32,540 nt of DNA from Lacrimispora amygdalina (GTDB taxonomy: Bacteria; Bacillota; Clostridia; Lachnospirales; Lachnospiraceae), in contig NZ_QOHO01000048.1 in assembly GCF_003432035.1 (NCBI RefSeq), positions 1 to 32,540 on the forward strand. The letters are read 5' to 3'. This document shows positions 3,901 to 29,743 of this stretch, one piece after another. A program made the position numbers and the translations under genes. Positions within the stretch are counted from its first letter, which is position 1; each line of letters opens with the position of its first letter. The notes below the pieces were generated by a model. It was not told the origin of the DNA. It did no database searches and was given only the letters and a program-made list of their open reading frames with translations.

Positions 3901-4715
3901 TGATTCACATCCTTTATACGAGTGTGCTGTTTGGAAATACCTCCAAGCAATGTAGTAACAGCCAGTGACATTGCTGAAATCATCAGTAAAATGATGGCAC
4001 AGGCCATTGCCATGCCATTCTCTCCGGTAGATATATTTAAATAAATGCTTGCCGGCAATGTCTCTGTTTTCATTCGTGTCACGCCCACCAGCATCAGCGT
4101 TGCTCCGAATTCTCCAAGCGCACGGGACCAGACAAGCACGATCATCGTAACAATTGATGGCATGCACAGGGGAAGAAGTATGGTATAGAACCGTTCCCAG
4201 CGGGAAGCCCCCAGTGTACCGGCAATAAATTCAAGCCTGTTATCGATCTGTGACATGGCATTTTTCATAAGTCTTACTGCAAAAGGCAGATTTACGGTCA
4301 GCTGGGCCATAATGATCCCTTTTCTGTCAAACACAACCTTAAATCCCAAATTCTTTAAAACCTTTCCAGCATCTGAGGAGAATACTACCAAAAGGCACAG
4401 TCCCAGTACCAGATAGGGAAGGGCTAACGGCATCTCGATAATAATCTGAGACGCTTTTTTAAACGGCATGGCTGTTCTGGTAAGCCCATATGCGCATGGA
4501 ATGGCGAAAAGCACACAAATACTGGTGGAAATGCTTGCAGTATAAATGCTCAAACCAACAGAAAACCGAACCTCCCTTGACCGGAGAGCTTCCTTCAAAT
4601 AAGGGAACCCTCCGATTATAATGGAAAGGAGCGCAAATAAAATAAACAGCACAATGCCTGCGGTTATCATAATCGATAGAATGTCAAAGATATTGTAGGA
4701 ATGTCTGTCTTTCAA
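3897..4715 (-). CDS. Molybdate/tungstate-type ABC transporter permease
   Basis: A 272-residue integral membrane subunit with about six hydrophobic segments. The conserved inner-membrane-permease loop reads ETLGASRWERF-like: AGTLGASRWERFYTILLPLCMPSI, shown here in two parts as AGTLGASRWERF and LPLCMPSI. The following ALGEFGATLMLVG is the typical ModB/CysT motif. It lies between the binding lipoprotein (18 bp upstream) and the ATPase (ATGA overlap), giving the standard A-B-C order. The length agrees with ModB/WtpB/TupB proteins. The oxyanion class is well supported by the EFGAT motif, but molybdate versus tungstate cannot be decided from this subunit. Confidence 0.87.
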   Translation of the reverse strand: MKDRHSYNIFDILSIMITAGIVLFILFALLSIIIGGFPYLKEALRSREVRFSVGLSIYTASISTSICVLFAIPCAYGLTRTAMPFKKASQIIIEMPLALPYLVLGLCLLVVFSSDAGKVLKNLGFKVVFDRKGIIMAQLTVNLPFAVRLMKNAMSQIDNRLEFIAGTLGASRWERFYTILLPLCMPSIVTMIVLVWSRALGEFGATLMLVGVTRMKTETLPASIYLNISTGENGMAMACAIILLMISAMSLAVTTLLGGISKQHTRIKDVNQ

Positions 4716-4733
4716 TGTTTCTCCTTATGGTAT

Positions 4734-5624
4734 TTACTTTTTTATCACTTCATAGCCAAATTTTTCCCAGATTGTATGAGAGGTATCAGAATCCAGAAAA
4801 TCAAGAAAAGCAGTAAGTGCTTCTGTGTCATCGCAATACGAAAGGGAAGCGGCTGGAACGGTCTTAATGTATTTAAGCATTTCTTCTGTATCCACGATTT
4901 CAACAGATGAATCCGTTACATTTTCTTTCCAGACAATTATGGCATCACATTCGTCTACGGTAAGAGCATTAAAGATTTCCGGTGCTGTAGTTGTCCTCGC
5001 TATTACATTCACTTTATCAAGCACTCCGGCATCTGTAAGGGCTTCATCTGAGATTTTACCAATGGGGGTTGATTTTGCATCACCTAAAACAAGACGCACA
5101 TCTTTATTTGCCAGATCCGCAAGCCTTGTAATCTTTAAGGGATTTCCGCTCTTTACTGCAAGAACTGGTATATGTTTCACTAATTCTCTGCTGGCTGAGA
5201 CCACATCACTCACCGGTTTCAGTTCATCTGCGGTACCTGCAATAAATAAATCGCCCTCTTTTGCAGTATTGATCTGCGTCTGTATCTGACCTGCATTCGC
5301 AAAGGTGATCTCCATTTCACATCCGGTCTGCTCTTTAAATGTATCGGCAATCTTCTGAAATGGTTTTGTCATACCTGCACCGCAGTACACCGAGAGCGTA
5401 TGGCCGTTTAAATCCGTTTTCCCCGCCTCTGATGCAGCCTGTGCTGTCGTCTGTGCCGCCGTCTTTGTTGTTTCCGGTTCTGATTTTTCTTCTGTCTTCG
5501 TTTCCCGGACCGTCTCTGTTTGCTTTTCTGATTCAGGTACCGAACTGCTGACGCTCTTACCGCACCCGCCTAAACCGAGAGAAATTAACATTACCAACAC
5601 TGCAACCGTACATGTTTTTTTCAT
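4734..5624 (-). CDS. ModA-like substrate-binding lipoprotein
   Basis: The 296-residue protein begins with a lipoprotein signal; the lipobox LGGC puts the lipidated Cys at residue 21. A Ser/Thr/Glu-rich linker of about 50 residues follows. The mature domain has SVYCGAGMTKPF, FANAGQIQTQI, DLFIAGTADEL and DECDAIIVWKENV, the pattern of ModA-type type II binding proteins. It should capture molybdate, tungstate or a related oxyanion at the outer face of the membrane and deliver it to the permease. It is first in the operon, with a good promoter about 50 bp upstream and a GGAGAAG site. No molybdenum-cofactor riboswitch is visible in the short leader. Ligand identity is inferred. Confidence 0.85.
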   Translation of the reverse strand: MKKTCTVAVLVMLISLGLGGCGKSVSSSVPESEKQTETVRETKTEEKSEPETTKTAAQTTAQAASEAGKTDLNGHTLSVYCGAGMTKPFQKIADTFKEQTGCEMEITFANAGQIQTQINTAKEGDLFIAGTADELKPVSDVVSASRELVKHIPVLAVKSGNPLKITRLADLANKDVRLVLGDAKSTPIGKISDEALTDAGVLDKVNVIARTTTAPEIFNALTVDECDAIIVWKENVTDSSVEIVDTEEMLKYIKTVPAASLSYCDDTEALTAFLDFLDSDTSHTIWEKFGYEVIKK

Positions 5625-5674
5625 ATCATCTTCTCCTTTGGTAAAATTTGTAAAACTCCGTTAGTTATTCTCTC

Positions 5675-5703
5675 AGTTTATTCCCTTATTTAATGGCTGT
5701 CAA
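5675..5703 (-). promoter_or_regulatory. Promoter of the oxyanion transporter operon
   Basis: TTGACA (5698-5703), a 17-bp spacer and TAAACT (5675-5680) lie upstream of the binding-protein gene. A large imperfect inverted repeat abuts the -35 box. Confidence 0.65.
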
Positions 5704-5768
5704 CAGAAGAGACCCTTTTGGAGAAAAAAGCGGCGGTATTCGTCCGTTTTTTACCAAAAGGGCCTGTT
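5702..5768. repeat. Long imperfect inverted repeat between toxin gene and transporter promoter
   Basis: CCCTTTTGG near 5713-5721 pairs with CCAAAAGGG at 5754-5762. The stem continues inward (AAAAAAGCGG against CCGTTTTTTA) and outward (AACAG against CTGTT). The arms touch the TTGACA box of the transporter promoter. It could be the 3' hairpin of the toxin-antitoxin transcript, though no T-run follows on the minus strand, or an operator for the transporter. Confidence 0.6.
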
Positions 5769-5775
5769 AGTAATT

Positions 5776-6081
5776 TTAATAAAACAATTTTGTATATTCT
5801 GTTTTTGTGTCTGCAATATGATAAATATAGGCTGATGTTTCAATTATCTTATAAATTACTACATGCTTTTCACAAATTACCATTCGGAATTCTTTCTCAT
5901 TAAGCCATGAATCCGGTGTCAAAGATCCAGAATCAGGGAAATCCTGTAAACGCTCAATAGCATCTAAAATATGATCACTTACTTTCAATGCCGTTTCCAT
6001 ATTAAACTGCACTGTATAATAATCTTCAATTTTCTTTAAATCTTCCCAGGCAGTGGGAAGAATTTCCACCCTATACTTCAT
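5776..6081 (-). CDS. RelE/ParE-type toxin
   Basis: A 101-residue protein starting MKYRVEILPTAWEDLKKIEDYY, the classical beginning of the RelE/ParE superfamily. Later features are LQDFPDSGS, the FRMVICEKHVVIYKI strand pair and a C-terminal IYHIADTKTEY. RelE members cleave mRNA at the ribosome and ParE members poison gyrase; the sequence alone does not say which. The gene overlaps the antitoxin gene by 11 bp, the usual antitoxin-first order. The toxin appears full length with no stop or frameshift, so the pair is likely functional. Control is expected through the antitoxin-bound operator upstream. Confidence 0.85.
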   Translation of the reverse strand: MKYRVEILPTAWEDLKKIEDYYTVQFNMETALKVSDHILDAIERLQDFPDSGSLTPDSWLNEKEFRMVICEKHVVIYKIIETSAYIYHIADTKTEYTKLFY

Positions 6082-6346
6082 TTAAACGCTCTCTTAATGC
6101 TTTCCTGGCATCGGAAATACTCATTGTTCTGGCTCCACTAAGACGTTCCTCTTCTGCTTGCAGCACTTTGGACCGAAGTTCCAAAATCTGCTCCCGTTTT
6201 TCAAATGCTTCTATACTCATCAGCACCATATCGCCCTCGCCATTTTTAGTAATATAAATAGGTTCTTTTGTATCTTTTGCCAAATTGGAAATCGATGTAT
6301 AATCATTCCTCAACGCCGCTGATGGCTTAATAATCATATCCTGCAC
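6071..6346 (-). CDS. Phd/YefM-family antitoxin
   Basis: A 91-residue protein. The N-terminal half (IIKPSAALRNDYTSISNLAK, then EPIYITKNGEGDMVLMS and IEAFEK) is the DNA-binding Phd/YefM fold. The C-terminal half is charged and helical, as expected of the toxin-binding tail. It would neutralise the adjacent RelE/ParE protein and repress the operon. An internal ATG at codon 4 is an alternative start; the GGAAG site fits either. The two genes overlap by 11 bp, indicating co-translation. The C-terminal ISDARKALRERLNEV segment lies in the overlap region. Confidence 0.85.
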   Translation of the reverse strand: MQDMIIKPSAALRNDYTSISNLAKDTKEPIYITKNGEGDMVLMSIEAFEKREQILELRSKVLQAEEERLSGARTMSISDARKALRERLNEV

Positions 6347-6441: not shown

Positions 6442-6713
6442 AGAAACAAAGGTTCCATATTGTAATACAGAACAGATTCGTCAACAAGTGATTGCATTTC
6501 CTTTACGCAATGCATTTTTGAGTTTTTTTTAAATATATATAAGTATGTACATAATAGTCAGCCTTAAATGCATATAAAATTTCCCGTAGGAGGTTTCAAA
6601 TGAGCTCTGGTTAATCAAAATAGCAAAAAAATAATTCACTACTAACGCATTCGCCAAACTCCTATAAACATATATTTGTTATAGGCAGTTCAACCAAAAG
6701 AAGGGAGATCCAT
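6442..6713 (+). promoter_or_regulatory. Leader region of the lectin cassette with 4-codon mini-ORF
   Basis: This 270-bp A+T-rich stretch has no full-size gene. It contains TGCATT/AATGCA arms near 6493-6516, a TTGAGT followed by a T/A-rich tract (6518-6540) and a CATAAT at 6550-6555. A perfect AGGAGG (6588-6593) lies 6 bp before ATG AGC TCT GGT TAA (6600-6614). Next comes a CCTATAA/TTATAGG hairpin (about 6660-6685) and the AAGGGAG site of the lectin gene. A clear promoter could not be fixed. The mini-ORF and hairpin suggest leader control, which is inference. Confidence 0.4.
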
Positions 6714-7100
6714 ATGGCAAAAACGTCAACATTTAATCTTGAAGAAATGAAACCAGGTTACTTTCTGGCCTGGACAGTTACCACGCAATGCATGTATACA
6801 TACAACATTACGTTAAAAGCTGGAAATACTGTGATTTTTAGCGCAAACAAATCAAATTACAGTCCTACTTTCCAGTTAATCTCTCAGTCTACCTGGGATT
6901 ACTGTGACGGAAATCTTGTATTAACTATTACCTGCTATGATGCAGCTCAGGAGCTGAGATCAAGTACATCAAGCGGTTCAATCACTGATACAAGTGCTAA
7001 GACTGTGGGTTATGTATATTCCATCTGCATTGAGGATGCCGGAGACGCCGATTACAATGATGTATATATTAACATTGTAGGCTGGAAGAAAAAGGGGTAA
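6714..7100 (+). CDS. LecB (PA-IIL)-like calcium-dependent lectin
   Basis: A 128-residue beta-rich protein without signal peptide. Near the C-terminus it reads IEDAGDADYNDVYINIVGW and ends KKKG. In Pseudomonas LecB the corresponding end is a GSEDGTDNDYNDAVVV stretch closing with a C-terminal Gly. The calcium ligands align one for one (E107, D111, D113, N115, D116) and the last residue is again Gly, which in LecB completes the partner subunit's site. I therefore predict a calcium-mediated fucose/mannose-type lectin, probably oligomeric. The rest of the fold is too diverged to assign sugar specificity. LecB also lacks a classical signal peptide. The gene precedes a DUF6765 gene by 20 bp in an apparent two-gene operon. 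An alternative is another domain using the DxDYND calcium loop. Confidence 0.6.
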   Translation: MAKTSTFNLEEMKPGYFLAWTVTTQCMYTYNITLKAGNTVIFSANKSNYSPTFQLISQSTWDYCDGNLVLTITCYDAAQELRSSTSSGSITDTSAKTVGYVYSICIEDAGDADYNDVYINIVGWKKKG

Positions 7101-7120
7101 TCTGGAAGGAGGTTCATGAA

Positions 7121-8389
7121 ATGAATATAAGTTTCCATTATTTTGCTGTAAAAACACTGGCTCGTAAAGCAGGGTTTGATGAGAGTTCCGCTCAGCAAAT
7201 CGCTGTATTCTCACAGTTTATCGATGATTACAATGCTTACCTGTACAGACGATATTCAAACGTGCCCGACTGGGCAAAGCAGGCGCCCTATGATATGTAT
7301 ATTTCATCCTGGACAACGCCATTTAACTTCAATCCAGTAACGACCGGCTTTTGGGACTGGATGGATCTTGCTACACTTGTTACCCCACGTTCACAAAAAT
7401 TTACCGTTTCCCCATTTCATTTTATTCCTTCCACGCACCAATCCATGGCAGAAAAAGACAATCGAACCTTTCCAGCCACATTAAACGATGGAACAATTAT
7501 TTCAGATCATCTTAATTTTGCAAAAAATGAATTCATAAATGCAGCTACTGAAACAGACCGAATGAATGCTTTAATGCTGATTGGTTCACGGTTACATACA
7601 TTTGCTGACACTTATGCGCATCAGTTATTCTCCGGATACAATGAAACCTGTAACAATGTGACACTTGTACAGGTAATCAATAATATGACAGGCAAAGATG
7701 AGACTCAAAAATATAATACTCTGGCATATGGTTTTCTGCAGAAAATGAAAGATATATTACAGGGGCACCAGCCTGCAATCGGTCATATGATGATTGAACA
7801 TATTCCCGATTATCCCTGGATCTCATTTACCATGAACTATCCTTTGCCAGATGGCGGGACAGGAACTCATACTCGCAGTAATACAGCCGAATTCGTCCGG
7901 GCAGGCAAAGAAATTATGGATTATTTAAGATCCTGTTTAAACAAGCCCCCTATTTCAGGAAATGATTGGGAGCAGTTTACAGACAAGCTGGTTTTAGGCT
8001 TCTTCTTTGATGAAACTCTATACTCTGATGAAGGAGAACTGATTCGTGAATTAGTAAAACATTGGAGCAGCATTTTCGGTCAGGACGGCTATCTTTATTC
8101 TTATGACCGCCACGCATTATTTGATGGTATTATAGGCGGGTATTCTTCAAGGAGTTCCTCGAACGCAGCATTGGAAATGAATAATAATATAAATTCCATA
8201 TTCCCCTCTATGAGTGATGCCTTCTATTTTTATAATGCTTATGCTGATCATTTACTGATAGATCTTTATGGTTCACAGCCACGGTCAGCATGGTTTAATG
8301 TCGTAGCAGAGGATTCTGCTGCTCATATGTCTCCGATTGAAAATACAGACGATACGTTTGGTGTATCAATGGGCAAACCGTTATTATAA
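7121..8389 (+). CDS. DUF6765 protein, putative metal-dependent hydrolase
   Basis: A 422-residue protein beginning MNISFHYFAVKTLARKAGF, with AQQIAVFSQFIDDYNAY after it; this start is the signature of DUF6765. Candidate metal ligands are H6, D35/D36, H100, H106 and the cluster H159-xxx-D163-xxx-H167 in SRLHTFADTYAHQLFSG. The H-D-H spacing recalls zinc phospholipase C/P1 nuclease folds, so a metal-dependent hydrolase is plausible but unproven. A strong GGAAGGAGG site precedes the ATG, 20 bp after the lectin stop. No signal peptide or membrane helix is seen. Pairing with a lectin suggests that the lectin targets the enzyme to glycans or that both are released together; this is inference. A strong hairpin terminator follows. 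Confidence 0.7.
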   Translation: MNISFHYFAVKTLARKAGFDESSAQQIAVFSQFIDDYNAYLYRRYSNVPDWAKQAPYDMYISSWTTPFNFNPVTTGFWDWMDLATLVTPRSQKFTVSPFHFIPSTHQSMAEKDNRTFPATLNDGTIISDHLNFAKNEFINAATETDRMNALMLIGSRLHTFADTYAHQLFSGYNETCNNVTLVQVINNMTGKDETQKYNTLAYGFLQKMKDILQGHQPAIGHMMIEHIPDYPWISFTMNYPLPDGGTGTHTRSNTAEFVRAGKEIMDYLRSCLNKPPISGNDWEQFTDKLVLGFFFDETLYSDEGELIRELVKHWSSIFGQDGYLYSYDRHALFDGIIGGYSSRSSSNAALEMNNNINSIFPSMSDAFYFYNAYADHLLIDLYGSQPRSAWFNVVAEDSAAHMSPIENTDDTFGVSMGKPLL

Positions 8390-8407: not shown

Positions 8408-8445
8408 TATGCAAACACCTCCGATGTCATCGGGGTGTTTGCATA
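8408..8445. terminator. Bidirectional terminator between convergent genes
   Basis: A 16-17 bp stem with a single bulge (left arm TGCAAACACC-T-CCGAT, right arm ATCGG-GGTGTTTGCA) closes around a 3-nt loop. It separates the DUF6765 gene from the converging ABC-2 permease gene. No long T-run follows, but the stem is very stable. Confidence 0.75.
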
Positions 8446-8447
8446 TT

Positions 8448-9284
8448 CTATCCCCAAAGCGCATTCGCATCGGTAGCACTTCGATTCATGCGGGAAAAAT
8501 CTGTTTTAACAAAAGATAGGGTGGACAGCAGCAGAAATACCAGACCAATGACCAGAATAACTGCAAATGTCATAAACGGAGTAATTGCAAAACCATTAAT
8601 TTCAACTACCAAACCTTCTTTTATCAGATCAGGTACAGAAAGATCTGTTTTTTCCAGAACTATCATTCTAAAAAATGCGGTGGCATAGGTCATTGGATTC
8701 AAGTAGGCAGCAAATCTCAGCGAAACCGGCAGCATGGACAATGGGATATATGCGCCCGAAAGAAACGTCAGGGGCATTGTCACTGCAGTTTTCACGATCT
8801 GGAACGTTTGACCGTTGCGTACCTTTGTTGCTAAAAACAGCCCGACACCGGAAAATACAATGCCGATAAAAATCATTGATACCAGCACTAAGAAAGGAGT
8901 ACTCCAGTTCGTAAACTTAATCCCTATAAAAGAACCTATTATCAGTATCAAAATACCCTGCAACGTAGCTACCGTAGCCGCAGACAATAATTGTCCCAAT
9001 GCAACATAAACTCTTTTCGCTGGCGAAACCAGTACCTCTTTCATAAACCCACTGACCATATCATCGACTGTGGTAGAGGCAAGATTGAGTGCACTTTCAA
9101 ATACTGTCGTAATGATAACTCCCGAAAGCATGTAAGCGATGGGATTATCAATAAAATCATTTTTAAATATAGCACCGAACACATAAACAAAGAAAAAAGG
9201 AAATATCAATGAAAATATGAGCCCGGTTTTATTTCGTACAAAAGCCTTTAGACCTCTTTTCCATAAGGCGGACACTGTATTCAT
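8448..9284 (-). CDS. ABC-2 type transporter permease (DrrB-like)
   Basis: A 278-residue membrane protein with about six hydrophobic segments. It opens with a cytoplasmic WKRGLKAFVRNKTGLIFSLIF-type start, seen here as LKAFVRNKTGLIF. Conserved ABC-2 landmarks include GFMKEVLVSPAKR, LATKVRNGQTFQ and FLSGAYIPLSMLP, followed by YLNPMTYATAFFR. The start lies 1 bp beyond the stop of the ATPase gene, which supplies GGAGGAGGGG as ribosome binding site. Together they form a two-component exporter of the daunorubicin-resistance type, probably exporting a drug, lipid or polyketide-like compound. The substrate is unknown. No peptide or bacteriocin gene adjoins it. Confidence 0.88.
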   Translation of the reverse strand: MNTVSALWKRGLKAFVRNKTGLIFSLIFPFFFVYVFGAIFKNDFIDNPIAYMLSGVIITTVFESALNLASTTVDDMVSGFMKEVLVSPAKRVYVALGQLLSAATVATLQGILILIIGSFIGIKFTNWSTPFLVLVSMIFIGIVFSGVGLFLATKVRNGQTFQIVKTAVTMPLTFLSGAYIPLSMLPVSLRFAAYLNPMTYATAFFRMIVLEKTDLSVPDLIKEGLVVEINGFAITPFMTFAVILVIGLVFLLLSTLSFVKTDFSRMNRSATDANALWG

Positions 9285-9285
9285 A

Positions 9286-10206
9286 TTACCCCTCCTCCCT
9301 GATTTTTTTTCCTGTTATCTCTAAAAACACATCATTAAACGTCCCTTTTTTTATTTCAATATTGGTAATGTGATCCTTATGAATGCTTAATACCTCCAGC
9401 AGACGGTCCAGATATTCTGCCTCCACCTTGTAATAACCATTCTTTTTTGAATAATTTAATTGATAGTCTGCAAGCAGTTTCTCAAACGCTTCTTCGTCCT
9501 TTGTATTGATATAAGCTTTATCCTTCGTATACTTTTTCTTCAACGCGTAAGGCGTATCATGTGCTACTATGACTCCGCCATCCATGATTGCTATTTTATT
9601 GCAGATCTCGGCTTCTTCCATGTAGTGGGTGGTTAGAAAGATCGTAATGTTTCTCTCTTTTTGAAGTTTCATAATATATTCCCATATATGTGCCCTGGTC
9701 TGGGGATCCAGACCTGTTGTGGGTTCATCAAGAAATAAAACCTTGGGATAATGCATCAGACCTCTGGCAATTTCAACACGCCGTTTCATTCCTCCAGATA
9801 AAGCAGAAACCATTTTCTTTCTTTCATCTGTCAAATCCACCAGGTTCAGAACAAACCTGATACGTTCTTCCACTTCTTTGTTTGGAATATTATAAAATAC
9901 GCTATGCATTTTTAAATTTTCTTCGATGGTCATTTTTGCATCAAGTGTCGAATCCTGAAACACAACTCCGATTGCAGACCGTACTTCACTTTTTTGCCGG
10001 CTGACATCTTTTCCATCGATCAATAACGTACCGGAAGTTTTTTCAAAAATGGTACACAACGTATTAATGGTTGTGCTTTTTCCGGCACCATTGGGTCCCA
10101 GAAATGCAAATACACTGCCCTCTTCCACATCAAAAGATATATCGTTAACTGCCACAAAGTCACCGTATCTTTTTGTAAAGTTTTTAACCTGAATGATTGG
10201 ATTCAT
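9286..10206 (-). CDS. ABC-2 exporter ATP-binding protein (DrrA-like)
   Basis: A 306-residue ATPase. Motifs are Walker A GPNGAGKS (37-44), Q-loop VVFQDSTLD, signature ALSGGMKRR (135-143), Walker B VLFLDEPTTGLDPQT and switch LTTHYMEEAE (His 194). The C-terminal extension of about 90 residues, with TGKKI at the end, matches DrrA/CcmA-type exporters. It powers the permease encoded 1 bp downstream. A promoter with a structured leader of about 130 nt lies upstream. Regulation may act through the tandem leader repeats, since no regulator gene is adjacent. The transported compound cannot be deduced. Confidence 0.9.
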   Translation of the reverse strand: MNPIIQVKNFTKRYGDFVAVNDISFDVEEGSVFAFLGPNGAGKSTTINTLCTIFEKTSGTLLIDGKDVSRQKSEVRSAIGVVFQDSTLDAKMTIEENLKMHSVFYNIPNKEVEERIRFVLNLVDLTDERKKMVSALSGGMKRRVEIARGLMHYPKVLFLDEPTTGLDPQTRAHIWEYIMKLQKERNITIFLTTHYMEEAEICNKIAIMDGGVIVAHDTPYALKKKYTKDKAYINTKDEEAFEKLLADYQLNYSKKNGYYKVEAEYLDRLLEVLSIHKDHITNIEIKKGTFNDVFLEITGKKIREEG

Positions 10207-10286
10207 AGTTTTATCTCCCCTATCGCCGCTTGTTGGATTATTGTTACCTTATAATCCACGAAAAGCCTTTGTTTTATGCGGTACCG

Positions 10287-10344
10287 AGTGCTTCTGAAAC
10301 ATTTTTAAGCAGTGCTTCTTATGAAACGCAGTAAGAATACTGCT
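10287..10344 (-). promoter_or_regulatory. Leader of the DrrAB-like operon with tandem repeats and hairpin
   Basis: Within the 5' leader the motif GTTTCA..GAAGCACT occurs twice 24 bp apart (10311-10327 with a 3-bp insertion, 10287-10300). AGCAGT-TTCTTA arms (10308-10321 and 10332-10344) form a hairpin. Together these suggest an operator array or an RNA switch; nothing known was recognised. Confidence 0.4.
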
Positions 10345-10484: not shown

Positions 10485-12236
10485 TTATAAATATATCTTG
10501 TATCCCATAGCTTCAAGAAACTCTTCATCACTTGAAGCAAGAATTATTTTCCGCTCTTCTCTATTCCATTTCTGACCGGTCTCTGCAATATTCAGACTAA
10601 CAAATAATCTTCCCTTTCTTCCTTCCCTCACAAAAGTAAATACCTGTTGCGTTGTATCTTTCCATAATACTTCATAGGTTGCACTTTCCTCTATATATTT
10701 CTTCCTTATTTCTATCATATTTTGCACAAATTCACATAGTTGTGGATTTTCGCCCCAAACCATGGGATTTCTATATTCATTTTCCTTAATTCCGCATATT
10801 GCCTGCTCATCCCCGTAAAATAAGCTGGGGACTCCCGGAAACAGCATGAGCAAAATACAAGCCAGTTTCCATTTCCTTTGATCCCCCCTGCAAAGTGATA
10901 AAAACCTGGGCACATCATGACTGTCCAAAAGATTCATCTGTCCGTTTACAAGATTGGTCGGATATCTAAGCCTCATTTGTTCCAGCTGTTTCGCAGCTGT
11001 TAAAGCATTCTTATGATCACCGATTATATGATCACGGCAAATTCTTCTGAATTCATAATTCATGGTTGAATCAAAAATATCTCCACGAAGCCAGCTTTCT
11101 GCATTCTCCCACACTTCACCGATGAGTATTGCTTCCTTATTTTGTCTTTTTACCGCCCCTCTGAATCTCCTCCAAAAATTCCGGTCGATTTCATTCGCTA
11201 CGTCCAGCCGCCACCCATCTGCTTTGTACTCGCGGATCCAATAAGCACCTACATTGGCAAAATATTCCTGTACCTCCTCATTTGAAGTATTTAGTTTTGG
11301 CATCTTACGTTCATAAGCAAAGCAGGCATAATCTGGTTTTTCGTTTTCTGACTGCGGCCTGCGGACAGGTAATTTTAATTCATAAAACCAGTTTTTATAC
11401 TTTGAGTCTTTTCCCTTTTCCATTACATCTACAAACGCAAAAAACTCCCAGCTGCAATGATTAAACACTCCATCTATAATGATCTTCATCTCCCGTTTGT
11501 GAATTTCTTCCACTAAGTGTTTAAAATCCTCATTCGTTCCAAAGCAAGGATCAATATGATAGTAATCAATCGTGTCATACTTATGATATTCTCCTCCTGC
11601 AAATATGGGATTCAGGTAAATACAGTTAAAACCAAGCCCCTGGATATAATCCAGATTTTCAAAGATTCCTTTCAGCGTTCCTCCTAATCTTGATTTGCAA
11701 ACCTTTCCATTATCTAAAACAACATCCTTTGGGTGTTGTGGTGAAATATATTTCCCGCAGGCAAAACTATCAGGAAATATATTATACACAACTGCTTTTT
11801 TAAACCACGCTGGAACATCTGGTATCTCATTTTTTAATATGTAGGGGTATTGGTAATACTCACTTCTTCCATCCATAATCTCCCCTTCAAAATATATTAC
11901 AGCAAGTTCCTTTGTAAAGCGTTCTGAATAATAATATGTCCACTCCCCTTCATTTTGCAGTTTAAAATAATAACAGACACGGGAAAACGGCGTTTCAAAT
12001 GCTGCTTCAAAATAGTCGAAAAATTCATCCCTTGCTTTTATTTCCATCATAATTTCTTTAAAAACAACAGGAGTGGCAGTACAAGCCCGGTCACCATAGT
12101 ATAGGGTACAAGCAGTAACGTTGTCCTTTTGTGTTCGTATTCTTATTGTCAATCTAGTTTCAGATTCAGCAAATGCATAATTTGATAACGGAATATGCAG
12201 GACTGCCTCTCGATTTATTTCCATATTGTTTTTCAT
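10485..12236 (-). CDS. Cyclomaltodextrinase/neopullulanase (GH13_20-like)
   Basis: A 583-residue cytoplasmic GH13 enzyme expected to hydrolyse imported cyclodextrins, maltodextrins or pullulan fragments. An N-terminal CBM34-like domain (about 1-135) precedes the barrel. Catalytic regions are DGVFNH (255-260), GWRLDVANE (nucleophile D345), GEVWE (acid/base E374) and LLDSHD (D441). A later FPGVPSLFYGDE is also typical. There is no signal peptide, which fits an intracellular role after uptake by the adjacent transporter. It is the last gene of the operon; its ATG overlaps the permease stop by one base (TAATG). The start at 12236 has no good ribosome binding site of its own, so translational coupling is likely. 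The distinction from maltogenic amylase cannot be made by eye. Confidence 0.88.
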   Translation of the reverse strand: MKNNMEINREAVLHIPLSNYAFAESETRLTIRIRTQKDNVTACTLYYGDRACTATPVVFKEIMMEIKARDEFFDYFEAAFETPFSRVCYYFKLQNEGEWTYYYSERFTKELAVIYFEGEIMDGRSEYYQYPYILKNEIPDVPAWFKKAVVYNIFPDSFACGKYISPQHPKDVVLDNGKVCKSRLGGTLKGIFENLDYIQGLGFNCIYLNPIFAGGEYHKYDTIDYYHIDPCFGTNEDFKHLVEEIHKREMKIIIDGVFNHCSWEFFAFVDVMEKGKDSKYKNWFYELKLPVRRPQSENEKPDYACFAYERKMPKLNTSNEEVQEYFANVGAYWIREYKADGWRLDVANEIDRNFWRRFRGAVKRQNKEAILIGEVWENAESWLRGDIFDSTMNYEFRRICRDHIIGDHKNALTAAKQLEQMRLRYPTNLVNGQMNLLDSHDVPRFLSLCRGDQRKWKLACILLMLFPGVPSLFYGDEQAICGIKENEYRNPMVWGENPQLCEFVQNMIEIRKKYIEESATYEVLWKDTTQQVFTFVREGRKGRLFVSLNIAETGQKWNREERKIILASSDEEFLEAMGYKIYL

Positions 12237-13078
12237 TATCCTTTTACTCCTCCTGTTACCAGTCCTGAAACCATATATTTTTGTATGGCAAAGAACAGGA
12301 TCAAAATAGGTACCGATACTAAAATTGCGGCTGCGGAAAACAAGGACCAGCTTCTGCTGTAATCATTGGACTGAAGCTGATAAAGCCCGCCTGCAAGATT
12401 ATAATTTTCTTCTTTCATTAAAAATGTAGTGGCAAAAAGATACTCATTCCATACAAAGATCAATACCATGACCGCAGTGACGATAATAGAAGGTCTGGCA
12501 AGGGGTAATATAATTTTCCATATAATCTGTCCCGAACTTCCGCCATCGATTCTTGCAGATTCTTCAATTTCAATTGGAATGGTATCAAAATAACCTTTCA
12601 TATTCCAGATGCTGAATATACACATGCTTCCTGCATAAATCAGGATTAATCCGATGTAATTATTTAGCAGGTTCATATTTTTAAATAATCGAAAGATAGC
12701 AAACATGGATAAAATCTGGGGAAAGGCATTTAGAATTAACAATAGCTTCAGCATTTCATTTCTTCCCCGAAACCGGAAACGGGAAAATGCATATGACGCT
12801 GTAACGGAAGTCCCCATCGCAAGCACCATTGTTCCCAGACTAAGAACTACGGAATTCTTAAACCATATCAAAAATGGCTCCTCCAGAATAATGGCTGCGT
12901 AATTTTTTAAAGTGGGATTCTCTGGAAACAAAAATCCGCTTCCAAATGCAGAGCTTTCACTGCTTATGGAAAGCAGAAATGCGTACAAAACAGGAATCAG
13001 TGTTATAAAGCACAGCAGTATAAAAAATATATTTAAGATACTTAAACGGGCAATGCGTTTTGCTGTTTTTTTCTTCAT
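12236..13078 (-). CDS. Maltodextrin ABC transporter permease, MalG/MdxG-like
   Basis: A 280-residue inner-membrane permease with six predicted helices. The coupling-helix motif occurs as EIEESARIDGGSSGQIIWKI, followed by LPLARPSI; the EAA..G core is well conserved. The last residues VSGLVTGGVKG match the MalG/MsmG-type C-terminus. Its ATG overlaps the MalF-like stop by four bases (ATGA), and its own stop overlaps the GH13 gene by one. With the MalF-like partner and the binding lipoprotein it forms a carbohydrate uptake (CUT1) transporter. No ATPase is encoded nearby, so a shared MsmX-type ATPase is probably used. Confidence 0.9.
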   Translation of the reverse strand: MKKKTAKRIARLSILNIFFILLCFITLIPVLYAFLLSISSESSAFGSGFLFPENPTLKNYAAIILEEPFLIWFKNSVVLSLGTMVLAMGTSVTASYAFSRFRFRGRNEMLKLLLILNAFPQILSMFAIFRLFKNMNLLNNYIGLILIYAGSMCIFSIWNMKGYFDTIPIEIEESARIDGGSSGQIIWKIILPLARPSIIVTAVMVLIFVWNEYLFATTFLMKEENYNLAGGLYQLQSNDYSRSWSLFSAAAILVSVPILILFFAIQKYMVSGLVTGGVKG

Positions 13079-13965
13079 GCTCCTTCCTCCCCGATACCTC
13101 GATTGACAAATAAAGAAAATAAAACAATGAATCCAAATATTACAATGGAAACAGCAGATGAAAGCCCATAATTATTCGATACAAACGCATTTTGGTGAGC
13201 ATATGTAATAACGGTTTGAAGAGTAGCCCCTGTAAGAGAACCTTTTTGCATCGTCAATAAATAGATAATATCAAACTGCTTAAAGGTGGTAAATGTTGTC
13301 ATAATGATGGAAGGTGCTAAAACAGGCTTAATCGATGGAATTGTGATATATAAATTTTGTGCCCACCATCCGCCTCCATCTAATTTTGCACTTTCATAAC
13401 AGCTGATATCTACACTCTGCAATGCTCCATCCATCATCATGATAAGAAATGGCAGCGCCATCCACAAATTTAATACCATACAGGAAATAAAAGCTGGAAT
13501 ATTCTCAGATAAAAAATCCATGCTGGATAACCCGAATGCTGAACGTATTTTATTTAGCAAGCCGTACTGGGGATTATAAATGCCTACTCTCCATAATAAA
13601 ATTGATATATAAGCGGGCATAGCCCAGGGAAACATCAGTAATGTCTTGTATAGCCTTGCCGGTTTTAGTCCGTCTGCATTTAGTCCCAACGCAATAAAAT
13701 ACGCAAGCAAAATCTGAATTACCATATTTAAAACGGTCCAGATGATTGTAGTCAGCAATGCAGACAGAAAACCTGAATCCAGTTTCGTTAATGCACGTCT
13801 GTAATTATCAAATGCTATAAATTCATAGTCCGTCCAGTGATACAGATTCATATTCGTAAATGAAATATATATGGTATAAATAATGGGAAAAACCACAATT
13901 AACCCGATTAATAAAATTGAGGGAAAACTATATTCCCATGGAATAATCTTGTTTTTCTTGTTCAT
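13075..13965 (-). CDS. Maltodextrin ABC transporter permease, MalF/MdxF-like
   Basis: A 296-residue permease with six hydrophobic segments, beginning MNKKNKIIPWEYSFPS. The permease motif is CYESAKLDGGGWWAQNLYIT, followed by IPSIKPVLAPS. I place the start at the ATG at 13965. The open frame reaches 14133, but its upstream part overlaps the binding-protein gene and an intercistronic hairpin. A GGGAG lies about 12 bp upstream. The C-terminus overlaps the MalG-like start by ATGA. It pairs with the MalG-like protein as the membrane channel of a CUT1 importer. Length and motif agree with MalF proteins lacking the large periplasmic loop of E. coli MalF. Confidence 0.88.
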   Translation of the reverse strand: MNKKNKIIPWEYSFPSILLIGLIVVFPIIYTIYISFTNMNLYHWTDYEFIAFDNYRRALTKLDSGFLSALLTTIIWTVLNMVIQILLAYFIALGLNADGLKPARLYKTLLMFPWAMPAYISILLWRVGIYNPQYGLLNKIRSAFGLSSMDFLSENIPAFISCMVLNLWMALPFLIMMMDGALQSVDISCYESAKLDGGGWWAQNLYITIPSIKPVLAPSIIMTTFTTFKQFDIIYLLTMQKGSLTGATLQTVITYAHQNAFVSNNYGLSSAVSIVIFGFIVLFSLFVNRGIGEEGA

Positions 13966-14010
13966 ATCAATTGCCTGCTCCCTATCTGTGTAAAACATCC
14001 TATGCCTTTT

Positions 14011-14055
14011 TTGTATGACCAGCCAGCTGCTTAAAACAGTCAGCCGGTCATACAA
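14011..14055 (-). promoter_or_regulatory. Intercistronic hairpin between malE-like and malF-like genes
   Basis: A 10-bp perfect stem (TTGTATGACC at 14011-14020 with GGTCATACAA at 14046-14055) extends inward with further pairing. On the minus strand it is followed by A residues, not T, so it is not a simple terminator. Such hairpins often stabilise the upstream binding-protein message. Confidence 0.55.
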
Positions 14056-14077
14056 GGAAATGTTAAGGCACACAGCC

Positions 14078-15316
14078 TTATTGCATATCTGCGATTGCAG
14101 TCTCTGCCTTTTTCTGATATTCATAAACGGCAATGTTTAAATCTTTTCCTGATTTATTGACCGCTGCAAGAAGTGATTCAGTTGGTCCCCACATTACGCT
14201 CATTTGGGGAATATTTGGCATTGGCTGAGCAATATCAGCAGTCCGCCTCATGGCAGCTATCATTTCATCTTTTGCAACAGATGCATCATTATAAGATTTT
14301 TGATTCGCCGGTGCGCATCCTGAATTTTCTGCCAGTTCAATTCCAAGCTGGGGATCTGCTATTTCTTTCAAAACCTTTTCCACTGCCTCTTTTTTGGACT
14401 CAGCTGCATGTTTCATAACACCAATACCCTGAACGCCTGAATATGGCACCAGTGTATTACCGTTTGGAAGGGTGAAATCACATAGAGATTTTATTCCATA
14501 ATTGATCTTAGCTTCTTTCACTCCTGATATCAGCCATGGTCCTCCAATAATTGCTGCTGCTTTTCTGTCTTTAAAAAGGGCATTTACCGTATTATAATCC
14601 CCGTCTGCTTCCAGCTGCGCAAATTTTTTATTATATTCAATTGCCTCTTTTGTCTTTTCGTCACTCAATCCTGACCTGGCCTGCTCATCTATAATATATC
14701 CTCCAAATCCATTAATAAAAGGAGCTACATTATAAGCAGTTGAATGCTGGTTCACTAAAGCATAAGTTCCTGCAGCGGTGTCTGTATGGCTTTTCATATA
14801 GGAATAAAGTTCTTCTGTGGCAGAAGGCACTTCTCCCTCCCACAAATCCTTATTATAAATAAAAAGCAGTGTTTCAAAGTAGACAGGCATAAGGTATTGG
14901 GAATCCTTATAATTTCCTGCTTTCAGTGTCATGGGAAGCATATCGGCGTAAACGGTTTTGTCAACTACATCTGTGATTGGTGCCAAAACTCCCATTTCAA
15001 CAAACATTCCAAGAGAGTCATGGGCATACATATACAGATCGGGACCATTTACCTCATCACTTCCATATAGTTTTATCTGATCTGTCAAGCCGGTCTTTTG
15101 CTCAAACTTAACGGTGATCCCATCATCACTTAAAGCATCATTCAAACGATTTTCCATCAATTGTATGATTCCCTTATCTCCATCATGCCAAATACGGATT
15201 GTGTTCAATGATTCCTTATTTCCCTGCTTTGCTGCACCGCTGTCCGTGTTCTTACTGCATCCTGTAAAAACTAAGGCAGCCACTGCAATAAACAAAACCA
15301 TTGCCATCTTCTTCAC
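14078..15316 (-). CDS. Maltodextrin-binding lipoprotein, MalE/MdxE-like
   Basis: The 412-residue extracellular solute-binding protein has a lipobox VFTGC with Cys at position 20. The mature domain starts TIRIWHDGDKGI and contains GPDLYMYAHDSLGMFVEMG and later PYSGVQGIGVMK, the family 1 pattern of MalE/MdxE. It should bind linear or cyclic maltodextrins produced by the secreted amylase encoded 46 bp upstream. A GGAGG site precedes the ATG. There is hardly room for an independent promoter upstream, so it is probably transcribed from the amylase promoter. The sugar is inferred from the two flanking GH13 enzymes. Confidence 0.88.
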   Translation of the reverse strand: MKKMAMVLFIAVAALVFTGCSKNTDSGAAKQGNKESLNTIRIWHDGDKGIIQLMENRLNDALSDDGITVKFEQKTGLTDQIKLYGSDEVNGPDLYMYAHDSLGMFVEMGVLAPITDVVDKTVYADMLPMTLKAGNYKDSQYLMPVYFETLLFIYNKDLWEGEVPSATEELYSYMKSHTDTAAGTYALVNQHSTAYNVAPFINGFGGYIIDEQARSGLSDEKTKEAIEYNKKFAQLEADGDYNTVNALFKDRKAAAIIGGPWLISGVKEAKINYGIKSLCDFTLPNGNTLVPYSGVQGIGVMKHAAESKKEAVEKVLKEIADPQLGIELAENSGCAPANQKSYNDASVAKDEMIAAMRRTADIAQPMPNIPQMSVMWGPTESLLAAVNKSGKDLNIAVYEYQKKAETAIADMQ

Positions 15317-15362
15317 TTCTCATGTCCTCCATTCAAAATTATGAAACTATTTCACGAATCCT

Positions 15363-17348
15363 TTACCAGTCAATGCTTACTTTCCCGGAACCTGTTAATG
15401 GTACCGTATAGCTGCGGTTATCCCCGCTTTGCCATATGACATTACCAGCCGCATTCTTCTTAACCGCCTTAAATTCAATTTTCTGACCTGCCGGAAGATA
15501 AACGGTTAAATCCCACTCCGGATAGTTTGGGCAGACTGCAGGACCTGCCGCTTTGCCTGGATCCCAGTTTCCAAGTTCCGCGCAGTTTCCTGAAATATAA
15601 ACGTTCTGCCCCCAGTCCGTAGACGCATTGCGGATATGAAAGGCCACTGGAATTGTCTCACCTGCGTTTTCATCTGCCACGTATATTTTAGAAGTGTCTC
15701 CGGTAAGTGTTATTGTAACTTTCCTGTCTGACGATACTGTTATTTTATCATTGGGATTCATTACATTGACTAACGTAGTTCCTGGCTTAATGGTGCTTTC
15801 GGCACGTATGGACATTGTTTCGGTATCTGTTCCTTTGGAATTATGAAATGCACATATTAATTCCTGCCCTGCATTGTTTCCGCTGTCCATTCTTCTTGAA
15901 AAAGCATAGGTATGCATTGACGTCCACATTTCACGCTGTGTACCATAGCTCAAAGCTTCATATTTTCCACGAAGATCGTTTAAAGTCCGGATAAGCTTAT
16001 ATGTATTCGTTGATGTATTAAAATAGTCTTTTAAAATATTGCCGTTACTATCCTTAGTTACCATAGACCAGCGATTCCAGGTATCTGCAATCCCGTTGAT
16101 TCCCTGACCGTTGGCATTTCCTCTGTTCTGCTCTGTCCCCTGAAAGACTACCGGAGTCCCTCTTGCTGTAAAAATAAAAGTTAATGCATTATGGAGTTTA
16201 TCAACATCTCCACCTGCTTCGGTTAGAAAGCGATTACGATCGTGATTGTCAATAAAAGTGACCATATCATTCAGATGACTTCCATAAAGATGATCCTGAG
16301 CTAAAATAGACTGAAGTGACAGTTCCGATGTGTTGTTAAAATTCTTTCCATATGCAAAATCATTTACAATTGCCTGGAACAGCGGAAAATCAAGCATACC
16401 CGTCTCAGCGTTATCTCCAACCCAGTCCTTTATAAAAACCACATGCATATCAAAGTTTTCGCCAAAGGTTGCAACACCTAAATATTCCTGTAATTCATGA
16501 ATATCATAAGGTTTCATACATTTTGCCGCATCCACCCTGGCAGCGTCTGCCCCCGTATAGGTAAACCAGTTTTTTATTGAGTCAAATATTGCACGTTTTG
16601 CATCCTGATTATCAAAGTCTATATCATCCAAACCACCCAGGTCATGATCTTCCAGCATCTGCGTGCTTGTTGATGTATGGGGATGCTCTATGTCAAAATT
16701 AATATCTCCTTTATTATGATACCATGAGACATTATTAAACGGCGCCGCCGGCTGCAACTGTGTACCCTCTTTTAATCCTGTACCATTGGTATAATGAGCA
16801 TTGCTTCCGATTCCCTGAAGGTAATCTCCTACGTGATTGGGAACAATATCAAAAATAACCTTAATTCCATTATCATGGCAAACCTCTACCAGTTCCTTCA
16901 GCTTATCCTTACTTGCCTGCGGATCTTTTGAACCAAAATAGCGGTTGGCGCGATTGGGATCAAATACATTATATCCATGATAGGCAGATGGCCACTGCTT
17001 GCCATTGGCATCCGGTATTCCCCATAGCTGTGGATCGGAAACCGGTGAAATCCAGATAGCGGTATATCCCATATCCTTAATGTAAGAAATTTTATCTATG
17101 ATTCCCTGCCAGTCACCGCCATGCATGTAACGAAAATCTTCTTCTGAGTTTTCTGCATAGCGAAAGGCTTCACCTGCTGCATTATTCGTCTTATCCCCGT
17201 CATAAAAACGATCAACCATAATCTGATAAACAGACTCTCCCCGAAGACTTTCGGCTGCATTTACCTTTGTTGGAGGTAATAGCGGCATTATCATTATGAA
17301 ACAAAGTGCAAAGCATACAATACGTTTTAATATCTTTTTCACTACCAT
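15363..17348 (-). CDS. Secreted alpha-amylase/CGTase-like GH13 enzyme with CBM20
   Basis: A 661-residue extracellular starch-degrading enzyme. A signal peptide (about 1-32, ending KVNAAES) precedes the GH13 barrel. Catalytic regions are DIVPNH (167-172), ARVDAAK (nucleophile D273), GENF (acid/base E297) and FIDNHD (D370). A C-terminal CBM20 starch-binding domain occupies roughly 567-661 (GNCAELGNWDPGKA). The barrel resembles GH13_2 CGTase or maltogenic amylase, but there is little room for the IPT-like domain usual in CGTases. I choose the ATG at 17348, which has AAGGAAGGGG upstream; an ATG 14 codons earlier has a poor site. First gene of the operon; its products would feed the transporter. 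Whether it cyclises or only hydrolyses is undecided. Confidence 0.88.
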   Translation of the reverse strand: MVVKKILKRIVCFALCFIMIMPLLPPTKVNAAESLRGESVYQIMVDRFYDGDKTNNAAGEAFRYAENSEEDFRYMHGGDWQGIIDKISYIKDMGYTAIWISPVSDPQLWGIPDANGKQWPSAYHGYNVFDPNRANRYFGSKDPQASKDKLKELVEVCHDNGIKVIFDIVPNHVGDYLQGIGSNAHYTNGTGLKEGTQLQPAAPFNNVSWYHNKGDINFDIEHPHTSTSTQMLEDHDLGGLDDIDFDNQDAKRAIFDSIKNWFTYTGADAARVDAAKCMKPYDIHELQEYLGVATFGENFDMHVVFIKDWVGDNAETGMLDFPLFQAIVNDFAYGKNFNNTSELSLQSILAQDHLYGSHLNDMVTFIDNHDRNRFLTEAGGDVDKLHNALTFIFTARGTPVVFQGTEQNRGNANGQGINGIADTWNRWSMVTKDSNGNILKDYFNTSTNTYKLIRTLNDLRGKYEALSYGTQREMWTSMHTYAFSRRMDSGNNAGQELICAFHNSKGTDTETMSIRAESTIKPGTTLVNVMNPNDKITVSSDRKVTITLTGDTSKIYVADENAGETIPVAFHIRNASTDWGQNVYISGNCAELGNWDPGKAAGPAVCPNYPEWDLTVYLPAGQKIEFKAVKKNAAGNVIWQSGDNRSYTVPLTGSGKVSIDW

Positions 17349-17413
17349 TTCCCCTTCCTTCTTCACTGTTACGTTGTTAACTATTTTCATAAAACACCGG
17401 TATTTATAAGTAA

Positions 17414-24443: not shown

Positions 24444-25748
24444 TTATTGGTTCACTTCAGACAATAGTTTTTTTATTTTACAGTTTGAATTAATAATAAG
24501 CCAAAGCTGTGGATAATAACTCATAATATTCCACAATCCCGTACCACTTAACCCATTTTCTAAAACTAAATTGACGATTGCATAAATAGTTCTGGCATCA
24601 ACAAACCATACTATATGTTGAATTATTCTTCCACTTGTTTCAATTGCATATTCATAATATGGTGTTTTTGAAACTTCATCAAAAAGAATGGTTGATTTCA
24701 TTGATCTTGCCAAATCAATTACAGCATCTAATGTGATCGCATTTGCTTCAGAAAAGCCTTCAATATATGGAAGTGTCCAATCATATCCCAATAGCGGAAA
24801 TCCAACATTAATTTTTTTAGGATCCATCATTTGTTTTGTATAATTTACATATAATGAAATATTTTCTATTGAACTGATCGGCATAGGAGGTCCATATTGA
24901 GTCCCCCAGTAAAATCTCATTAAATATGTTTCATCAATTAATTCATTGTATTTTGAATAATTTACTTTCTCAAATAGTAACTGATTTTCTTCTATCAAAA
25001 AATTGGGATCTATCGTAATAAAAACAGGATATCCTTCTTTGTTAAGACGAGAAGTTATTCGTTCCAGGTAATTTAAATAAAGTTCTTGGTTAGTCTCATT
25101 TAAAAATGTAAACGTAATATTTACCCCGTAATACCCTTTTTCCTTCAAAATTTTAAGCATACTTTCCGCATGATTATCCTGATAATCCGGGTTTAAAAGT
25201 ATTTCATAAATCATTTCAGGATTCCGTTCACCTCGAAATGTTACACTTGTAACAAGCATTAAGGGCATCACACCAAATTGCTTAGCAGTTTCAATCAAAT
25301 CAGAATCATCATAGAATGATTCAATCTCTCCTTTCCTTAATGTTTTATAATTTAATATTGAAAGGTAGGTTAAGTAAGGTAATGACTTTTTTAAAATATT
25401 CTTATCAATAAAAGGAAATGCATAGGCATTTGTTGTAATAGTTCCTTTTGTATCATAACTAATTATAAGTTCTTCACCAGGAAAAATATATTCTCTTTCC
25501 CAAAGGTATGGATTATTTCGATATAATTGCATCATCGATATTCCATGATCCAATGCAATTTCAGATAAGTTATCTCCCTCTTTTACAATATATGTCTCTT
25601 GAGGATAGGTGATTACGATGGTTTGACCTATTACCAAGTCAGTAGGATTTGATATACCGTTTTCGAGTATTAACCTTGTTTCTGAAACTCCAAATTTATT
25701 TGCAATTGATGTAATTGTATCACCAACTTGCACTACATAAATGATCAT
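24444..25748 (-). CDS. LysM-LysM-GH18-fold protein, spore-envelope type, probably inactive
   Basis: A 434-residue protein with two LysM peptidoglycan-binding modules (about 3-48 and 51-97; YVVQVGDTITSIANKFGVS and YIVKEGDNLSEIALDHGIS). A GH18-like barrel of about 330 residues follows. This order matches YaaH/SleL-type spore cortex or coat glycosidases. The catalytic strand, normally ending DxDxE-like (NIDFE), reads GYYGVNITFTFLN at 205-217. Both acidic positions are Thr, so hydrolysis of N-acetylglucosamine bonds seems unlikely and a binding role is possible. No signal peptide is present, as in spore proteins made in the mother cell. The ATG at 25748 has a weak GGGT site; a TTG four codons upstream is worse. 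Confidence 0.8.
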   Translation of the reverse strand: MIIYVVQVGDTITSIANKFGVSETRLILENGISNPTDLVIGQTIVITYPQETYIVKEGDNLSEIALDHGISMMQLYRNNPYLWEREYIFPGEELIISYDTKGTITTNAYAFPFIDKNILKKSLPYLTYLSILNYKTLRKGEIESFYDDSDLIETAKQFGVMPLMLVTSVTFRGERNPEMIYEILLNPDYQDNHAESMLKILKEKGYYGVNITFTFLNETNQELYLNYLERITSRLNKEGYPVFITIDPNFLIEENQLLFEKVNYSKYNELIDETYLMRFYWGTQYGPPMPISSIENISLYVNYTKQMMDPKKINVGFPLLGYDWTLPYIEGFSEANAITLDAVIDLARSMKSTILFDEVSKTPYYEYAIETSGRIIQHIVWFVDARTIYAIVNLVLENGLSGTGLWNIMSYYPQLWLIINSNCKIKKLLSEVNQ

Positions 25749-25794
25749 AAATATACCCAATAACTATAGTTTTTATTATTATATGTATAAAGCT

Positions 25795-26838: not shown

Positions 26839-27260
26839 TTAAATAGTACCATTATTCAAGCCACAGGATTTTTGCATTGCTTCTGACCAAGGCATCAGTT
26901 CTTCCAGGATACTATCGGGCTCATTTTTGTAGTCCAGCATCTTAGTCATAACTGTTTCCAGATAGAGACGTATGTTTAATCCATTCGCTTTGGCTGTTTC
27001 TGCAAGCGTGTAAACAATTGCACTTGCTTTGGCACCTTTTACAGTGTCGTGAAAGAGGAAGTTTACCATAACATATGATTTTACGGCCCTTTCAGCTGCG
27101 TTATTACTAATGGAGCATCTTCCGTCAAGAAGGTAATTCTCCATATATGATCTTTGATTTTGGGCATAGTTAATTGCCCTGGCAAGCATTGATCCGCCAA
27201 GGGCATTTATCCCATTCGTCCACTTCCAGAATGCATCAAGTACCGGTCGCTCCAGTTCAT
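26839..27260 (-). mobile_element. IS66-family transposase, C-terminal fragment
   Basis: The open frame encodes the end of an IS66 DDE transposase: PVLDAFWKWTNGINALGGS, then AINYAQNQRSYMENYLLDG and SISNNAAERAVKSYV, followed by the C-terminal IS66 tail (YTLAETAKANGLNIRLYLET). The frame can be read from about 27260, upstream of the first Met at 27189. The full transposase is about 500 residues; here only the last 140 or so remain, so it cannot transpose on its own. The upstream catalytic part and the accessory orfs are gone. It overlaps the end of the 27257-27535 gene by a few bases at the junction. Confidence 0.8.
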
Positions 27261-29180: not shown

Positions 29181-29743
29181 TTAACTCTTGTTTCCTTTAT
29201 AATTGCATGATACACTTACGCTGTATGTCGCCCAACCGCCAAGATTTCTATTTACTCGACAACTATATTTAGCTGTCGCTTTTGAAGTTCCATCACCAGA
29301 AGTGGTTGTTCCGTAGTCTTCTACATCACTTACCCCACCACCTTGATTATATGATCCTGATTCATCAAATACATACACTGTCCTTTCTGCGCTATCATAT
29401 TCAAATCTGGCACTTACTTCTACTGACCCTGTAGCCCCATAGCTTTTAGTTTTAGTATATTTTTTTGATTTAGACGCTCTTAATAAAGCAGCATTATGCT
29501 CTATATAAGTTCTTTCCACATAAGGTGTACCATCTTCTTCAGTACCCCAAACTTCAGAAATAAGACTTCCTTTTGAGAAATCTGGTCCTTTATCCTCCAT
29601 TCGGAGCTGTGCCATGGCTGCATTACTTGCCATTGGCACATTAGTTATGGCGAGTGAATTATCAGCCATTGCCTGTGGAGCAGTTACCGTACTGACAGTT
29701 AATGTCATTAAAAATAATGTAGTCCATTTTTAATTTTTCTCAT
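29181..29743 (-). pseudogene. Secreted protein gene with a frameshift in the signal peptide
   Basis: The main frame from 29708 to 29181 gives 175 residues. It begins inside a signal peptide (FLMTLTVSTVTAPQAMADNS) and ends CRVNRNLGGWATYSVSVSCN. It has no ribosome binding site at its first Met. An ATG at 29743 has an ideal AAAGGGGATTAAGT site and starts MRKIK. It would join the main frame to give MRKIKKWTTLFLMTLTVSTV only if the A-run at 29727-29731 had one more base. The mature part is polar, Gly/Ser-rich, with two Cys near the C-terminus, and resembles no family I can name; small secreted antimicrobial or envelope proteins look similar. A sigma-A promoter and terminator frame it. The shift may be real decay, slippage or a sequencing indel. 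Confidence 0.6.

Follow-up and report, generated by a model that had tools for sequence, protein, structure and literature searches.

The bacterium Lacrimispora amygdalina (Clostridia, Lachnospiraceae) carries a compact two-gene unit that encodes a small lectin and a protein of the family DUF6765 (PF20551). The unit lies in a stretch of 32,540 nucleotides, referred to here as the window (assembly GCF_003432035.1, contig NZ_QOHO01000048.1, positions 1 to 32,540 of the forward strand), and the same gene order is found in two other genomes. The lectin is predicted to have the LecB fold, its calcium loop and a set of His and Asp residues in the DUF6765 protein are conserved among relatives, and these observations, along with the recurring gene order, are the established basis of this report. 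Regarding function, a glycan-targeted hydrolase or toxin is plausible, and our tentatively preferred reading is a hydrolase directed by a lectin, the two encoded in a small accessory operon, which would offer a first functional handle on DUF6765. The features of the unit are as follows.

6702..6707, plus strand: AGGGAG, probable ribosome binding site of the lectin gene, read from the sequence
6714..7100, plus strand: intact coding sequence of the LecB-like lectin, 128 residues
7032..7061, plus strand: codons E107 to D116 (EDAGDADYND), predicted acidic calcium loop, from an alignment including 4ut5 and from column counts
7095..7097, plus strand: codon of Gly128, the C-terminal residue of the lectin
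7106..7112, plus strand: AAGGAGG, ribosome binding site of the DUF6765 gene, 8 bases upstream of its ATG, read from the sequence
7121..8389, plus strand: intact coding sequence of the DUF6765 (PF20551) protein, 422 residues
7136..7138, plus strand: codon of His6 of the DUF6765 protein, conserved in 13 of 13 aligned proteins
7595..7621, plus strand: codons of H159-xxx-D163-xxx-H167 of the DUF6765 protein, conserved in 13 of 13
7784..7810, plus strand: codons H222 to D230 (GH....HxPD) of the DUF6765 protein, from the aligned set
8409..8444, no strand assigned: inverted repeat of 11 bp in the gap that separates the pair from a convergent ABC permease gene, read from the sequence

The lectin is best defined by its fold and its calcium loop. 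An earlier sequence-only reading of this DNA had proposed a LecB fold, and the predicted structure is indeed a LecB-type beta-sandwich; moreover, 11 of the 14 rows returned by a PDB search are LecB-like. That reading had also described a calcium site matching LecB residue for residue, which holds for the loop and less well beyond it. The spacing of E107, D111, D113, N115 and D116 is identical to that of E95, D99, D101, N103 and D104 in LecB (4ut5), and over 22 aligned lectins these columns are kept in 21, 22, 21, 21 and 22 sequences, respectively. All 22 end within one residue of the window lectin, with Gly last in 17; in LecB-type lectins the carboxylate of the C-terminal Gly is a calcium ligand of the partner monomer. 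However, 12 residues separate the loop from the C-terminus (D116 to G128), whereas the 4ut5 chain, 114 residues long, has 10 (D104 to 114), and Thr21 occupies the position of Asn21 of thrombocorticin, a column in which none of the 22 lectins has Asn. LecB also has Asn21, but there it binds calcium through the main chain, and the nature of the side chain may therefore be of little consequence. Positions 22–24, which in the LecB family have a role in sugar choice, read VTT. Calcium and sugar binding by the lectin are thus far inferred from sequence. A match to DUF4114 (PF13448) stayed below the cut-off (E 0.011, with E 0.005 and 0.004 for the relatives L027 and L035) and was dropped, and NCBIfam gave no match up to E 1 for the lectin or the DUF6765 protein.

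The family assignment of the second protein, already made in the sequence-only reading, is secure, as the Pfam match covers residues 1–377 with E 1.9e-52 and 179.3 bits against a cut-off of 26.6. In the 13 of 21 DUF6765 loci that were aligned, H6, H100, H159, D163, H167, H222 and D230 are invariant and H227 is present in 11, so that the HxxxDxxxH cluster pointed out earlier is common to all 13 and has the look of a metal enzyme. The wider His/Asp set, including the N-terminal His and the HxxxD motif, is kept in 12–13 of the 13, and it may correspond to the ligand set of the zinc-dependent phospholipase C (PLC) and S1-P1 nuclease enzymes. Structural comparison gave a weak match in which the 14 best VIA rows all belong to this one superfamily. 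Sequence searches did not reach it: PF00882 has no match to the window protein up to E 1, none of the seven DUF6765 proteins scanned attains its cut-off (four lie below it and three are not listed), and the scores of the relatives are no better than chance matches. In addition, the PDB returned nothing with the single sequence and five unrelated rows with a profile, and a literature search by family name found no paper on DUF6765. The protein is probably a metal-dependent hydrolase, and from the conserved residues we infer zinc binding and hydrolase activity.

The two open reading frames lie on the same strand 20 bp apart, intact and with the strong AAGGAGG site before the second, as had been described. 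Directly upstream of the lectin gene, and divergent from it, a ParE toxin and a Phd/YefM antitoxin are encoded on the minus strand (window 5776–6346; PF05016 and PF02604 matches), and downstream of the DUF6765 gene lie convergent genes for an ABC permease and an ATPase, identified by eye. The pair is therefore a separate two-gene unit, and probably one operon. A promoter scan listed 15 sites where shuffled sequence would be expected to give 9.0, with no compelling site ahead of the lectin gene. The inverted repeat (opposite-strand self-match 8408–8445, 92%) was not called by a scan for T-tailed terminators; it is a possible terminator shared by the pair and the permease gene.

The lectin was followed into 23 distinct genomes besides its own, 18 from a contig scan with the lectin alignment plus G147, G290, G567, G365 and G513, with four repeats (G054, G188, G283 and G386, equal to L022, L032, L018 and L028) counted once. 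A DUF6765 gene stands directly downstream of the lectin gene in two of them: a Defluviitaleaceae genome (L018; gap of 22 bp, with a second lectin gene beyond) and a Clostridia metagenome-assembled genome (L028; gap of 19 bp). Gene order and strand are identical in the three, with gaps of 19–22 bp. The pair thus recurs, as the sequence-only reading had asked of other genomes, but its coupling is not specific to DUF6765, since another neighbour is more frequent and DUF6765 proteins of the close type also occur without the lectin. The five close-type proteins adjoin a lectin in the window, L018 and L028, and not in G221, of the same genus, or G082; this 3/5 is biased because L018 and L028 were found via the lectin, and searches led by DUF6765 give 1/3.

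The more frequent neighbour is a TenA-like protein, found in 8 of the 23 genomes (L016, L019, L021, L023, L025, L027, L035 and L040); the copy in L027 lies downstream of the lectin and is split across two frames. With Pfam TenA (PF03070), L016 just passes the cut-off, L021 and L035 fall short of it and L019 has no match, so the firm evidence is a profile of seven of the eight, which matches BT3146 (PDB 2a2m) with E 1.8e-85 and TenA with E 8e-9. Apart from L027, these loci place the BT3146-type family beside the lectin across several phyla. A nitrilase-like partner occurs in three genomes (L026, L033 and L034), a label that rests on an E-K-C pattern seen by eye and a sub-cutoff PF00795 match in L033 (E 0.037; none in L026 and L034), and that PDB searches did not support. 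These proteins also show a weak match to the lectin profile, N-terminal by eye and without the calcium loop, and a full lectin gene follows. In three further genomes (L024, L030 and L032) the lectin carries dockerin repeats fused on its N-terminal side, with no obvious signal peptide (Dockerin_1 E 7.9e-22 in L030; by eye in L024 and L032), and in two (L041 and L042) the lectin has a signal-peptide-like start, by eye. No partner is evident in five (L020, L022, L029, L031 and L043); the neighbourhood seen for L016 and L040–L043 was about 1.5 kb per side. DUF6765 as a constant partner was accordingly dropped. On a lectin tree of 25 rows, L043 excluded, the partner labels require 9 changes compared with 15.7 in shuffles, none of 200 shuffles being as low, and the labels are thus clustered. 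The best tree requires two changes for DUF6765 and five for TenA, of which well-supported branches force only one and two; this points to exchange or loss of partners without proving it.

By record titles, the lectin loci lie in Bacillota (including Anaeromicropila populeti, L022, a Lachnospiraceae), Bacteroidota, Chloroflexota and Aeromonas. The family as seen here is therefore neither mainly Gram-negative nor peculiar to Firmicutes, against the view taken earlier. L032, titled as a Bacteroidales bacterium, and G188, of the family of the window, have an identical dockerin-lectin frame, and the title of L032 may be wrong. The lectin occurs in 1 of 25 genomes of the genus and 1 of 398 in a phylum sampling, its own genome only, and no relative was found in viral contigs or in plasmid and phage records. 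DUF6765 is present in 11 of 200 family genomes, its own included (10 above the cut-off), and a lectin match accompanies it in just one of the other ten, G147, on a different contig. A single-protein DUF6765 scan of the genome contigs found no relatives, and a second contig scan used the lectin alignment instead. L. amygdalina itself has a second DUF6765 gene (G000:C97:145-1227; L001, L053), followed by a family-10 xylanase-like gene, by eye.

Around the pair the locus varies. Of the 24 other genomes of the genus, 14 contain a long match to the ABC-transporter flank, and in the four relatives examined similarity stops at window 8442–8449, the lectin/DUF6765 stretch not being common to them. G202 has both flanks (window 4173–5859 and 8444–10287) on one contig with different genes between, so the pair lies in a variable stretch. 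Base composition over the pair (GC 0.35–0.42, vs 0.30–0.45 around) gives no sign of foreign DNA.

In our preferred reading, the two genes would share one transcript, and the lectin would be made in the cytosol, bind calcium and carry or dock the DUF6765 enzyme onto a glycosylated surface, such as that of a competitor or predator, host mucus or the cell's own envelope. The enzyme, probably of the three-metal PLC/S1-P1 nuclease fold, would cleave a phosphodiester or phospholipid, and the pair would leave the cell by lysis or some other route. Cellular location is the main gap in this scheme: as had been noted from the sequence, neither protein shows a signal peptide by eye, which makes both release by lysis and a role inside the cell conceivable. 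The latter, with the lectin binding a cytosolic sugar or nucleotide sugar and DUF6765 acting as a phosphodiesterase or nuclease in stress, metabolism or anti-phage defence, is unlikely but deserves attention. The TenA-like and, less clearly, the nitrilase-like partners resemble cytosolic enzymes, and the pair adjoins a toxin-antitoxin module in a variable stretch. However, we know of no free glycan target inside Clostridia, the dockerin fusions and signal-peptide-like starts suit a role outside the cell, and the absence of lectin relatives from the viral contigs and the plasmid and phage records searched also counts against it.

Rather improbable is that the genes are chance neighbours without a functional link. 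The stretch is not shared by the four genus relatives examined, DUF6765 does not adjoin the lectin in 21 of the 23 other lectin genomes, and the single co-occurrence among the ten other family genomes with DUF6765 is on separate contigs; yet the order, strand and gap of 19–22 bp kept in three genomes, together with the rarity of DUF6765 (11/200), make chance adjacency very unlikely. We give similarly little credence to DUF6765 being a non-enzyme, or a metal protein with a different fold, beside a lectin as described: the structural match is weak and PF00882 adds nothing above chance, but the 14 best rows fall in one superfamily and the conserved residues are in keeping with the ligand set of its enzymes. 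Returning to lectin-directed hydrolysis, the probable role of the lectin is that of a general module for docking or multimerisation, which evolution has paired with different enzymes. More tentatively still, it may represent a family of enzyme modules guided by a lectin that spans phyla and had gone unrecognised, in which a cytosol-made LecB-fold lectin with a free C-terminus targets and its neighbour acts, the lectin being either attached to dockerins or paired in operons with interchangeable enzymes (DUF6765 phospholipase/nuclease-like, TenA-like or nitrilase-like). The suggested rule of one lectin with various enzyme partners is testable and could help to assign functions to several enzymes that lack annotation, among them BT3146, whose structure is solved but whose function is unassigned. 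The survey also extends LecB-fold lectins to Clostridia, Bacteroidota and Chloroflexota, although members of this kind may already be predicted in lectin databases.

Elsewhere in the window, the minus strand holds a maltodextrin-type cluster (10485–17390) with an amylase bearing a CBM20 starch-binding domain and, by eye, another amylase-like enzyme together with an ABC transporter; a LysM and GH18 protein by domain scan (24444–25760), which we take to be of the spore-cortex hydrolase type; a C-terminal piece of an IS66 transposase (26839–27189), a sign of past mobile-element activity; and a 175-residue protein (29181–29708) that matches no Pfam family at E 0.01 or better.

Among known systems, the lectin is close in fold to the LecB/PA-IIL family of two-calcium fucose/mannose lectins (Pseudomonas LecB, CV-IIL, RS-IIL and BC2L), with 8–16% identity in structural alignment, and it shares 14–19% with thrombocorticin (PDB 7f91/7f9f), from which it differs by Thr21 in place of Asn21. 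DUF6765 has a His/Asp set with HxxxD that resembles that of the zinc-dependent PLC/S1-P1 nuclease superfamily (PF00882 and relatives), and residue 1 of its model aligns with chain residue 1, 21, 26 or 27 of those enzymes, taken as their mature N-termini. Unlike them, its start is conserved at Met1 without a signal peptide, and the match omits its C-terminal third. Finally, BT3146 (PDB 2a2m), a TenA-like protein entered as hypothetical in the PDB, is akin to the TenA-like neighbours of the lectin and represents a partner type other than DUF6765.
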